A DNA stretch of 20,058 nt from IMG/VR virus record IMGVR_UViG_3300047276_000332, positions 1 to 20,058 of that record; one strand, written 5' to 3'. Of the stretch, positions 1,511 to 4,904 are shown in pieces (positions within the stretch are counted from its first letter, which is position 1; the number at the start of each line of letters is the position of its first letter). The DNA is from a virus. The notes beneath the pieces were generated by a model. That model saw nothing but the letters and a program-made list of their open reading frames with translations, did not search any database and was not told the origin of the DNA. Made by a program: the position numbers and the translations under genes.

Positions 1511-2074
1511 TCATTCTTTCTCGCCTCGCCCGATGCTTGCCATTGCTTGCTGGATGAGGTCTGCCGCTTTGAGGTATCCGGCGTCGTACACTGCCTGCAT
1601 CACCTTCTCAAGGGTATCAATCATTGCTGGCTGGCTGTCCACCTTCACCACCACCTCTTCCCCTTCCGTCTCCCCTTCACCTTCTGCCTTCTCTGCCTTG
1701 ATGGGCTTCACCTTCCCTTCCTCGTCAATCTCTGCTGTGCCCTTCTCAAGCTTCCGCAGGTCTGCCGCGAGCTTCTGAACTGAACTATACGAGGGCATGA
1801 TTGTTAGCAGGGTTTGGCGTGTTTCGCTTTTTGCTGCTGCGTCTGCTACTCGCTTGAATTCGCTTTTGCGGGTTTTTGCTGTTCCCTTCTCGTATAGGGA
1901 AAGTGCCTGCTCTCCATACCCCTCAATCATCGCTTTGTATTCTGCTTCCTGCCCTGCTGCATATTCGCACACTGCCTGTCTCAGGGTTTCCATGAGCTTG
2001 CCGCCCATGTCTTTCTGCACTTGTGCGAAGTGTGCCCCTATTGCTTGGGGGCTATGTTTCTCTCTCTTACCCAT
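1511..2074 (-). CDS. Hypothetical protein, 187 aa, first gene of the left-arm operon
   Basis: Starts at an ATG preceded by an AAGGAGAG ribosome site. This is the gene nearest the divergent regulatory region on the minus strand, so it is probably the first to be transcribed leftward. The product is soluble and mostly helical: a basic N-terminus (MGKREKHSPQAIGAHF), a helical region with a conserved-looking Glu/Tyr stretch, a basic segment (TAKTRKSEFKRVADAAAKSE), then a strongly charged low-complexity linker near residues 116-143 rich in Glu, Gly and Lys, and a C-terminal helical segment ending GRGEKE. I recognise no family. The arrangement of helical core, charged linker and short C-terminal helix is compatible with a DNA-binding or DNA-mimic early protein, but nothing in the sequence proves this. 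Confidence 0.75.
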   Translation of the reverse strand: MGKREKHSPQAIGAHFAQVQKDMGGKLMETLRQAVCEYAAGQEAEYKAMIEGYGEQALSLYEKGTAKTRKSEFKRVADAAAKSETRQTLLTIMPSYSSVQKLAADLRKLEKGTAEIDEEGKVKPIKAEKAEGEGETEGEEVVVKVDSQPAMIDTLEKVMQAVYDAGYLKAADLIQQAMASIGRGEKE

Positions 2075-2401: not shown

Positions 2402-2462
2402 TGTGTATAAGCTGTGGATAACTTATTGATTTGTCTAGCATTTGTGGATAAGTTGTGTATAT
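2402..2462 (-). promoter_or_regulatory. Cluster of DnaA-box-like 9-mers in two phased pairs
   Basis: Three exact matches to the bacterial DnaA box (TTATNCACA, read on the minus strand) occur at 2402-2410, 2413-2421 and 2443-2451, and a fourth with one mismatch at 2454-2462. All share one orientation. They form two pairs; within each pair the sites start 11 bases apart with a two-base gap, and the pairs are separated by 21 bases. The central two are the strong TTATCCACA form. This is a candidate host DnaA-binding array for phage replication or for control of the flanking promoters. Confidence 0.6.
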
Positions 2463-2562: not shown

Positions 2563-2693
2563 AATAAAGCTTGACAAATATGTTTTTATATGTTATAATA
2601 GTACACATAAGTACACTAAGGATGTTCTTATAAACATAAAAGAATAAAGCTTTACTTATATTGTTTTGTTATAAACATATAAGACACTAAGGA
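2563..2693 (+). repeat. Tandem duplicated promoter/leader unit
   Basis: Two units both begin with AATAAAGCTT (2563-2572 and 2643-2652) and both end with ACACTAAGGA (2613-2622 and 2684-2693), with similar TATAA-containing sequence in between. The first keeps a perfect promoter; the second has lost the -35 box and is about nine bases shorter, but supplies the TAAGGA ribosome site of the small terminase gene. It looks like an old tandem duplication in which the copies have specialised. Confidence 0.5.
2571..2599 (+). promoter_or_regulatory. Consensus sigma70 promoter for the rightward head genes
   Basis: A perfect TTGACA (2571-2576) and a perfect TATAAT (2594-2599) are separated by exactly 17 bases. 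It faces the small terminase gene about 100 bases downstream, and no terminator lies between. The initial transcribed region (ATAGTACACATAAGT) resembles that of the second promoter at 6872, suggesting a shared leader. Use of host RNA polymerase is inferred from the consensus. Confidence 0.85.
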
Positions 2694-2699
2694 CTTGTA

Positions 2700-3119
2700 A
2701 TGGACATTAAAGAAGCTCTAGAGAACCAGCCAGCCCCTGTTAAACGAGGAAGGGGACGTCCCAAGAAGGGAGAAATTGTAGCAAAGATGCCCAAGAAGAG
2801 GGGGCTTGTAGGCCGTCCTAAGGGCGAACAGAGCATCATCAACGAATATAGGGCTAGAATGTTAGCCTCTCCTAAAAGCTCTAAGGTGTTAGAGAAAATT
2901 TATGAGGCTGCCCTGAATGATGAACATAAAAACCAGAGTGCTGCGTGGAAACTCATTATGGACAGAATGTTGCCCCTTAGCTATTTCGAGAAAAGCAACA
3001 ATGTTGCTGGTAGGGCTAGTGTTAACATCACTATCACTGGTGTTAATGGAGACACCACCATCATTGGAAACGAAGAAGCAGATGATGTCCAATATGTGGA
3101 GAAGAGCAATGAATTTTGA
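2700..3119 (+). CDS. Putative terminase small subunit with AT-hooks
   Basis: A 139-residue basic protein preceded by a TAAGGA ribosome site. Residues 16-24 (RGRGRPKKG) form a canonical AT-hook and residues 35-42 (GLVGRPKG) a second, weaker one, so the N-terminal third is expected to grip the minor groove of AT-rich DNA. Residues 46-97 are helical and carry a conserved-looking KVLEKIYEAALNDEHKNQSA and LIMDRMLPLSYFEK pattern that I associate with small terminase subunits of this phage type. The acidic C-terminal tail follows a short beta-rich part. Position as first gene before TerL supports recognition of the packaging site. The alternative is a general AT-hook DNA-binding protein. It overlaps the next gene by 11 bases. 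Confidence 0.65.
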   Translation: MDIKEALENQPAPVKRGRGRPKKGEIVAKMPKKRGLVGRPKGEQSIINEYRARMLASPKSSKVLEKIYEAALNDEHKNQSAAWKLIMDRMLPLSYFEKSNNVAGRASVNITITGVNGDTTIIGNEEADDVQYVEKSNEF

Positions 3120-3657
3120 TTTGTATAAAGACGCTCTAGGACAACACGAAAGTACAGACAACTACAGCAAGGTGAATAAATATAACTACCTTGGGCGTTA
3201 TCAATTTGGTGCTAGAGATTTGCAAGCTCTTGGAATGGTGAAGAAGGGAACAACACAAGCAGGGCTTAACAAAGATAGTAATTGGCTTGTTGGAAATAAG
3301 AAAGAATTTCTGTCTTCTCCTGAAATGCAGGACGAAGCTCTAAGAAAAGCAACAGAAAGAAACTATTCCTATTTAACAAAGAAGGGCATCATCAATGATG
3401 ACACTTCTCCTGATGAACAAGTGAAGCTTTTGACAGGAGCCCACCTTGTTGGAGGGTGGGGGCTTATTAAGAGCCTAAGGGGAGAAGATGTTAGAGATGC
3501 TAACAGGATGTCTCCTGATGTTTGGGGAGAGAAGGTGAGACAAAGCTATTTGGAAATGCTTCCTAAACAAGCTTCTCCTATGCCAATGCCAGAAGAACCT
3601 TCCTTTGAAAACTTCCAGAATATGTTGTTAGGCAATCCATTGGGCACGGCTCCGTGA
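3109..3657 (+). CDS. Lysozyme-like (transglycosylase-like) protein between the terminase genes
   Basis: The frame is open further upstream inside the small terminase gene, but the ATG at 3109 has a GGAG ribosome site seven bases before it, giving 182 residues. The start DLYKDALGQHESTDNYSKVN, followed by YNYLGRYQFGARDLQALG, matches the ESxxxY...GxYQF pattern of lysozyme-like transglycosylase domains. Glu14 is the likely catalytic acid. AHLVGGWG (111-118) is a second typical element. The last 30 residues (PMPMPEEP...) form a proline-rich tail. No signal peptide or membrane segment is seen. It may be a virion-associated wall hydrolase used at DNA entry. Its place between the two terminase genes is unusual. 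The C-terminal stop overlaps the GTG start of TerL. Confidence 0.65.
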   Translation: MNFDLYKDALGQHESTDNYSKVNKYNYLGRYQFGARDLQALGMVKKGTTQAGLNKDSNWLVGNKKEFLSSPEMQDEALRKATERNYSYLTKKGIINDDTSPDEQVKLLTGAHLVGGWGLIKSLRGEDVRDANRMSPDVWGEKVRQSYLEMLPKQASPMPMPEEPSFENFQNMLLGNPLGTAP

Positions 3658-4904
3658 GTGAGTTTAACATTAAGCTGCTTCCCTGGCAGCAAGAGGTGTG
3701 GGGAGACAAGACAAGGTTTAAGGTGGTGGCTGCTGGGCGTAGAACAGGCAAGAGCAGGCTTGCGGCCTATTTGCTTCTCTTCAATGCCTTACAAGCAGAG
3801 AAAGGCCATGTGTTCTATGTTGCCCCCACACAAGGGCAGGCAAGGGACATTATGTGGCAGACATTGTTGGAGACAGGCCATTCTGTTATAACAGGAAGCC
3901 ATGTTAACAACTTACAGATAAAGCTGGTTAATGGAGCAACCATTTCCCTAAAGGGAGCTGATAGGCCAGAGACAATGCGTGGTGTGTCTCTAAAGTATTT
4001 GGTGATGGATGAATATGCAGACATGAAGCCAGAGGTGTGGGAACAAATCTTACGTCCTGCTCTGGCTGACCAGAAGGGAAGTGCTTTGTTCATTGGAACA
4101 CCAATGGGTCGTAATCACTTCTATGACTTGTTTATGCACGGGAAGGAAGAGGAAGACCCCACCTTCAAGAGTTGGTTGTTCACCAGCTATGACAACCCCC
4201 TGATAGACCCTAATGAAATTGAGGCTGCTAAGAAGAACATGAGCAGCTTTGCTTTTAGGCAGGAGTTTATGGCTTCTTTCGAGGCACAGGGAGGGGAGTT
4301 GTTTAAAGAAGAATGGGTGAAGGTGGACGAAGAAGAGCCTGCTCAGGGAGACTATTACATTGCCATAGACCTTGCTGGCTTTACAGATGAGAGCAAGGCA
4401 AGCAAGAGCAAGAAGCTAGACAATAGTGCAATTTCTGTTGTTAAATGCAATGAAGAGGGATGGTATGTTAAGGACATCATCTATGGCAGATGGAGTGTAG
4501 AAGAGACAGCACAGAAGATATTTAATGCTGTTAAGAAATATGAGCCCCTTGCTGTAGGGATAGAAAAGGGAATTGCCAAGCAAGCTGTTATGCCCTATTT
4601 GTCAGACTTGATGAGAAGAAGGCAGACATTCTTTAGAGTGGAGGAGCTTTCACATGGAAACAAAAAGAAGACAGACCGCATTGTTTGGGCCTTACAAGGG
4701 CGTTTTGAGCATGGACAGGTTGTGCTTAATAAGGGGACATGGAACATGGAGTTTTTGGATGAACTCTTCCAGTTTCCAAACAAGCTTGTGCATGATGACC
4801 TCATTGATTCGTTAAGCTACATTGAACAACTTAACAAGCAAAGCTATGCCCAACACTTTGAAGAAGACGAATATGAACCAATGGACGCTGTTAGCGGCTA
4901 CTAA
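3654..4904 (+). CDS. terL: Terminase large subunit (packaging ATPase and nuclease)
   Basis: TerL drives DNA into the prohead and cuts the concatemer. The 416-residue protein has a Walker A at 26-34 (AAGRRTGKS), a Walker B at 116-120 (LVMDE) and a coupling motif at about 147-150 (IGTP) in the ATPase half. The RNase H-like nuclease half shows three acidic sites: D239 in YIAIDLAG, E304 in VGIEKG and D381/D382 with D385 in HDDLIDS. This order is that of Terminase_6-type large subunits. Translation starts at GTG, overlapping the previous stop as GTGA, with no strong ribosome site, so it is probably coupled. The length is on the short side for large terminases but both domains look complete. Confidence 0.95.
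   Translation: MSEFNIKLLPWQQEVWGDKTRFKVVAAGRRTGKSRLAAYLLLFNALQAEKGHVFYVAPTQGQARDIMWQTLLETGHSVITGSHVNNLQIKLVNGATISLKGADRPETMRGVSLKYLVMDEYADMKPEVWEQILRPALADQKGSALFIGTPMGRNHFYDLFMHGKEEEDPTFKSWLFTSYDNPLIDPNEIEAAKKNMSSFAFRQEFMASFEAQGGELFKEEWVKVDEEEPAQGDYYIAIDLAGFTDESKASKSKKLDNSAISVVKCNEEGWYVKDIIYGRWSVEETAQKIFNAVKKYEPLAVGIEKGIAKQAVMPYLSDLMRRRQTFFRVEELSHGNKKKTDRIVWALQGRFEHGQVVLNKGTWNMEFLDELFQFPNKLVHDDLIDSLSYIEQLNKQSYAQHFEEDEYEPMDAVSGY

Follow-up and report, generated by a model that had tools for sequence, protein, structure and literature searches.

The stretch of viral DNA analysed here (the window, 20,058 nucleotides in all) carries a short phased array of four candidate DnaA boxes, which appears to have been kept by selection in the control and putative genome-end region that lies ahead of the terminase genes in a podovirus-type phage. 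The reading we favour, to which we give a rough probability of 0.45, is that the array is a platform for host DnaA in the genome-terminus region, where the protein would act at the DNA end or at a concatemer junction. Both the binding of DnaA and its action there are predictions of this reading.

The four 9-mers of the array are as follows.

2402-2410, minus strand: DnaA box 1, exact match, TTATACACA; the counterpart in the nearest relative, L004, is imperfect
2413-2421, minus strand: DnaA box 2, exact match, TTATCCACA; L004 counterpart identical
2443-2451, minus strand: DnaA box 3, exact match, TTATCCACA; L004 counterpart with one mismatch
2454-2462, minus strand: DnaA box 4, one mismatch, ATATACACA; L004 counterpart is the exact TTATCCACA

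These coordinates bear out the preliminary description, made from the bare sequence, of three exact matches and one near match in a single orientation, arranged as two pairs with a start-to-start distance of 11 bases inside each pair and 21 bases between the pairs. All four boxes (4/4) read TGTGGATAA along the terminase strand. The whole 20,058-base record contains three exact matches to TTATNCACA, all at 2402-2462, and none to a control pattern read backwards. Three or more exact sites were found in 0/5000 shuffles of the upstream 700 nt under a first-order Markov model (mean 0.05), in agreement with the earlier claim that the cluster is above chance for this region. When one mismatch was allowed over the full window, 28 sites were observed against 22.7 expected. 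Since this total is ordinary, the signal lies in the cluster and not in the window total, and a general abundance of boxes in the window was rejected as a candidate.

The boxes sit in a 625-base gap between a leftward and a rightward ORF, and the features in and around this gap are given below.

1511-2074, minus strand: 187-aa ORF bordering the region, without a family
2300-2312: conserved G-rich element CCCGGGGGGAGGG (family form CCGGGGGAGGG), occurring with or without boxes
2349-2367: conserved A-rich element TACAAAAAAGAGCAAAAAT (family form ATACAAAAAAG), to the right of the G-rich element
2571-2599, plus strand: sigma70-type promoter TTGACA-17-TATAAT with an extended -10, pointing to the terminase genes
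2700-3119, plus strand: small ORF of 139 aa with two RGRPK/GRPKG motifs, in the position expected for the small terminase subunit; conserved in the family, with no confident family match
3654-4904, plus strand: large terminase subunit (TerL)

Beyond the rightward ORF come an ORF resembling lysozyme, the large terminase gene and those of an SU10-type portal and the major head protein. The RGRPK/GRPKG motifs of the small ORF may be read as AT-hook-like. A loose promoter scan returned a single promoter, compared to 1.9 in shuffles, and that one scores 12/12 with the extended -10; in many relatives, too, the homologous ORF is preceded by a similar promoter. The divergent promoters said earlier to flank the boxes were thus half recovered: the rightward one is a perfect sigma70-type promoter, but the scan of the window region yielded none pointing leftward. 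In relatives such as L052 and L061 a second repeated motif, TACTTAAGTA/CTTAAGTAT, was seen downstream of the sigma70 promoter and ahead of the small ORF, and is presumed to be part of a leader; it reaches at least three copies in 8/102 of the upstream regions described next.

Relatives were gathered by gene and not by box, using TerL (80 loci), the small ORF (80) and a primase-helicase from a near-complete relative (41). The 202 gene-selected loci, the window included, comprised 157 with the small ORF, of which 21 were dropped because their upstream DNA was too short; the 136 usable regions were dereplicated to 102. Exact boxes were absent from 67 of these regions, occurred once in 3, and occurred twice or more in 32, as against a shuffle mean of 0.27 and a maximum of 3 regions with two or more boxes (200 shuffles). 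Some relatives have up to 10-11 boxes per region. Altogether the regions hold 120 boxes in 79,463 nt (shuffle mean 6.9, maximum 17), and in the first 54 of them 76 boxes were counted in 36,420 nt, compared to 18 in the 361,356 nt that form the remainder of the same loci. In a 9-mer count that assumed no motif, TTATCCACA and the 9-mers shifted from it by one base ranked highest among those with at least three copies in one region. When IMG/VR was scanned for boxes with 11- or 12-base spacing, 43 of the at least 223 loci found were seen to encode relatives of the window family's genes. A chance origin of the boxes was rejected on the shuffle comparisons for the window region and for the 102 regions.

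The boxes of the family are orientated 106:14, with 106/120 reading TGTGNATAA on the terminase strand. Spacings between neighbours of the same orientation were 11 (19 times), 22 (11), 33 (5), 12 (5) and 19 (6), among others. Weaker copies follow the same phase: non-exact positions scored at least 6 of 8 in 28/73 cases at -11 and 18/73 at +11 from an exact box, against 0/78, 3/78, 0/72 and 0/73 at -10, +10, -12 and +12, respectively, and 70/4201 over all remaining offsets within 40 bases. Nearly half of the one-mismatch sites in box-bearing regions (21/45) differ solely at position 5, which is left open in the DnaA consensus. In-phase weak sites at ±11 are what cooperative loading would need, although they might also be the remains of a decayed tandem duplication.

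Clustered TTATNCACA 9-mers, with same-orientation sites about one helical turn apart and weak ones in phase, are among the features by which an oriC-type array is recognised in sequence, and these were found here. The left and right arrays of Escherichia coli oriC are described as having sites 2 bp apart with strong beside weak (PMC6070618), and shifting selected boxes relative to each other by a fraction of a helical turn is stated to be highly detrimental (PMC4285127). Phased sites, with weak sites in phase, are common to the window family and to E. coli oriC; the family differs in that its boxes are mostly strong and that close relatives are box-free. The recruitment of host DnaA put forward in the preliminary description is supported at the level of sequence by the conserved 9-mers, the unbiased discovery of TTATCCACA, the single orientation and the 11-bp phasing with its in-phase weak sites.

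Comparison of the window with its nearest relative (L004, TerL 89% identical) showed that the array is conserved beyond its surroundings, with 50/61 positions identical in the array, 38/60 in the left flank and 20/60 in the right flank. L004 has a box-like 9-mer at all four positions; exact and imperfect copies are distributed otherwise among them, and there is one extra box. The comparison with L414 was less clean (36/61 over the same block, with three boxes of its own close by). L061 and L052 have the same box positions, and are identical at 52/61 positions in the array versus 23/40 to the left of it. The 9-mers, whose conservation in relatives had been proposed as a check and whose absence there would have spoken against them, are therefore conserved, and the four in the window are, to judge from these comparisons, a real and selected array of putative host-DnaA sites.

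The array is also subject to turnover. TerL of L061 and L051 is nearly identical, and the right part of their regions agrees almost base for base, while the array part differs. Only damaged box copies remain in the array part of L051, and the difference between the two is, as far as sequence can tell, one of natural loss or exchange. When the presence of boxes was placed on the TerL tree, 12 changes were needed, 10 of them forced by well supported branches. Because 67/102 regions are box-free, including those of G006 and G008, which have the same replication genes, the array must be dispensable. It would appear to be useful yet optional, and often gained and lost.

The G-rich and A-rich elements are more constant in their arrangement. 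In the 43 regions where both were recognised, the distance from one to the other is 44-52 bases, whether boxes are present or not. Boxes lie to the left of this pair in 8 and to the right in 6 of the 14 box-bearing regions with both elements recognised; the pair was not recognised by our search pattern in 18 further box-bearing regions. In the window, L004 and L414 the array is to the right, on the terminase side. We regard the G-rich element as a candidate part of the genome-end region (cos or terminal repeat).

We then turned to phages outside the family. Over its full length, TerL of the window family is only about 28% identical to the closest TerL match from a cultured phage. The 10-box array of L314 and the 11-box array of L148 were compared by blastn with 50,697 phage records, and matched 185 and 225 records, respectively. 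Among the 60 matches listed for L148, 13 lay within 250 nt of a record end, or 10 when three RefSeq duplicates are subtracted. Small microvirus-type records (Microviridae, bajarodmic and others) also matched the L148 array (H93, H99, H111, H119, H122-H124, H139 and H141-H143). Eighteen records, hand-picked from both lists and partly for their end location, were examined closely, with T7 and SP6 as comparisons. By coordinates, the array is at the record end in 7/18 (A7, phiEap-1, Kp7, ZK1, BD1, Seahorse and Tiff81). By gene order it is where late and early genes meet in a further 5/18, whose records are apparently rotated (P483, nasanit, VLCpiA2a, PmP19 and BD5, the last placed there on its likeness to BD1); in P483 and nasanit the boxes lie between terL and the early genes. 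In the remaining 6/18 the arrays or pairs are internal (Starbow, LilMartin, DL64, DC31, 949 and PM135). The internal array of Lactococcus phage 949 (115 kb; L469 4010-4376) stands beside an HNH endonuclease gene. No array was found in T7 or SP6, which have one internal box each.

Boxes are found within exact terminal repeats in phiEap-1 (5 in 195 bp), Kp7 (5 in 238 bp) and A7 (4 in 177 bp), and the repeats at both ends together account for 10/12, 10/14 and 8/8 of all boxes in these genomes, respectively. The arrays of phiEap-1 (Eapunavirus), Kp7 (Molineuxvirinae) and A7 (Berlinvirus) resemble that of the window in having 4-5 TTATCCACA boxes in one orientation, with spacings often near multiples of 11 bp. 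They differ in that these phages are Autographiviridae and their arrays lie inside terminal repeats of 177-238 bp, whereas the terminus of the window is deduced. Moreover, phiEap-1 and Kp7 have annotated RNA polymerase genes, while none was seen among the listed ORFs of G001, a near-complete relative of 39,947 b; a search for phage RNA polymerase (PF00940) gave no match, but its control was likewise silent everywhere. The Arthrobacter phages Seahorse and Tiff81 have 3/3 of their boxes in the last 95 bases, in the same orientation. In Seahorse the array is followed near the genome end by the G-rich GGGTGGGGGGAGG, and across the end come terS, at base 64, and terL. Seahorse and Tiff81 are unrelated to the window and have an actinobacterial host; the sequence comparison with them covered the array. 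In the 12 end-type records, 73/75 array boxes have the sequence TGTGGATAA when read along the strand of the terminase or early genes, as in the window family, although these records represent about five lineages and the polarity counts are therefore not independent. Similar rows of boxes at the ends of several unrelated phages suggest that phages may use host DnaA at their DNA ends. We found no description of DnaA boxes in phage terminal repeats, including those of phiEap-1, Kp7 and A7, in the open-access literature; what comes closest is a sentence on the injection stop region of phage T5 (PMC13250531) and an Ori-Finder prediction for a Pseudomonas phage (PMC11512268).

Evidence on the ends of the family itself came from G025, the 36,338-base contig behind L114, whose TerL is 57% identical to that of the window. 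The same 221 bases are present at both of its ends, and this direct repeat contains all seven boxes of the array together with the G-rich stretch. Among 14 other near-complete records, four have end overlaps (55, 76, 123 and 127 bp) and 10 have none; the overlaps of 55-127 bp are probably k-mer overlaps of the kind that assemblers leave on circles. The repeat of G025 could also be an assembly overlap, but a 221-base overlap exactly at the array is not expected of a random cut. Contig ends in general are weakly enriched in the region, with 30/78 left ends at 200-800 nt upstream. We infer that the terminus of the window may lie at the array region as well; the window is a 20-kb fragment with uninformative ends of its own. 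A cluster of four DnaA boxes was also observed in G025 at 34103-34207 (equivalent to L480 1104-1208), about 2 kb from its terminal array and near a ThyX-like gene.

Action at the DNA end is favoured because arrays of the same make-up and polarity occur in the terminal repeats or last bases of unrelated phages, and in the G025 repeat. Against it count the box-free regions, the placing of the array on either side of the G-rich and A-rich elements, the weak enrichment of contig ends, the chance that the repeat of G025 is an assembly overlap, the hand-picking of the phage records, and the internal arrays seen in six of these. We propose that DnaA would load on the exact boxes and then spread to weaker sites in phase with them. 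Once loaded, it may form a short one-directional filament, as at oriC. The filament would most likely act at the phage DNA end or concatemer junction, and the likeliest step to be served is the opening of DNA or a local start of synthesis there, for example in duplicating the end sequence before packaging.

The DnaA would be that of the host, and a phage-encoded DnaA-like reader was rejected as a candidate. Domain IV of DnaA (PF08299) was found in 0/9 phage records, some of which are perhaps incomplete, while the control was positive in 10/14 genomes. A host search by genome scan gave 9 loci, five of them at 65% identity or more and in metagenome bins of five unrelated groups. A tRNA-Arg(tct) in L084 (16701-16777) and a tRNA-His(gtg) in L093 (18874-18967) are a possible clue to the host.

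An alternative, which we consider unlikely, is a classical replication origin, at which DnaA would open the DNA, the phage replisome would load, and forks would leave both ways from the point of divergence. The array is indeed oriC-like, and where an unwinding element would be looked for it is adjoined by moderately unstable DNA (2383-2443, z 2.25), with a stronger minimum at 2622-2682 (z 3.68). The 60-bp flanks of 39 arrays average 0.49 on either side and are not AT-rich. The primase-helicase encoded on the leftward side of G001 is of T7 type (DnaB_C and Toprim domains) and is accompanied there by a polymerase, a 5'-3' exonuclease, ThyX and a ribonucleotide reductase. Most of these replication genes are also present in G006 and G008, which have no array, and the proposal that the boxes serve replication is weakened by such relatives, which share the primase-helicase and polymerase and lack boxes. 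A further point against an origin is that the position of the array shifts relative to other conserved elements.

All genes diverge from this region, which lies near the minimum of cumulative GC skew in several near-complete relatives. Eight records were tested. The minimum is inside the same gap in G006 and G008 and, upstream of the small ORF, in G024. G001 has it some 190 bases to the left of the gap and G014 about 1 kb to the left of the small ORF, whereas in G002, G018 and G020 it coincides with the contig edge. The skew minimum had been suggested as a check on the array, and it did not fall elsewhere, but the check proved uninformative. Since boxes are absent from three of the clear cases (G006, G008 and G024) and every gene is directed outwards from the gap, the minimum is not specific to box-bearing genomes and is no sign of a DnaA-driven origin. 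Skew was rejected as proof of an origin because relatives that lack boxes show the minimum equally and its effect is wholly inseparable from that of gene direction.

We hold it improbable that the array controls DNA entry in the manner proposed for the phage T5 injection stop, being the first or last part to enter, with bound DnaA holding or protecting the end. Arrays at the ends of unrelated phages, with a polarity fixed relative to the genome axis, would fit such a role. According to one description (PMC13250531), DnaA boxes occur in that region of T5, which would be a feature in common with the window family. However, the orientation may equally stem from packaging or replication.

Nor do we see much prospect for a regulatory role, in which DnaA would act on transcription from divergent early and late promoters and couple phage expression to the host cell cycle. 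The array does have the leftward gene on one side and the rightward sigma70 promoter on the other, and wherever the G-rich and A-rich elements were tabulated the boxes are upstream of the recognised rightward promoter. The earlier suggestion of promoter control keeps that promoter, but the boxes do not overlap it, and the array occupies two places relative to the conserved elements, so that its distance and side vary. The lack of a recognised leftward promoter also counts against regulation, as does the presence of end arrays in T7-like phages with their own RNA polymerase.

It is very unlikely that the array is a sponge, many multi-box phage copies titrating DnaA and so halting host initiation: the high box number of some relatives and an optional array of flexible position would suit this, but strict phase, single orientation and a genome-end location are all unneeded for it. 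Chance or a by-product of mutation, for instance functionless slippage in units of 11 bp, could account for the weak in-phase copies as decayed duplicates but is hardly tenable in view of the enrichment far over shuffles in 102 regions, the conservation of the array beyond its flanks, the at least 10 gains or losses forced by supported branches, and the same motif in unrelated phages.

To our knowledge, the mechanism by which terminal repeats are duplicated from concatemers, and the host factors that act at incoming phage ends, are not settled. It is possible, though we put this forward as a doubtful generalisation, that unrelated tailed phages have repeatedly placed phased, one-directional DnaA-box arrays in their end repeats and use host DnaA at the DNA end or concatemer junction, perhaps to open the DNA so that the terminal repeat can be duplicated during packaging, the window family being one uncultured branch among them. 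A fixed-polarity initiator array in the terminal repeats of tractable coliphages would make a role of DnaA directly testable, and such a role, if true, would explain why the repeat recurs in unrelated phages.
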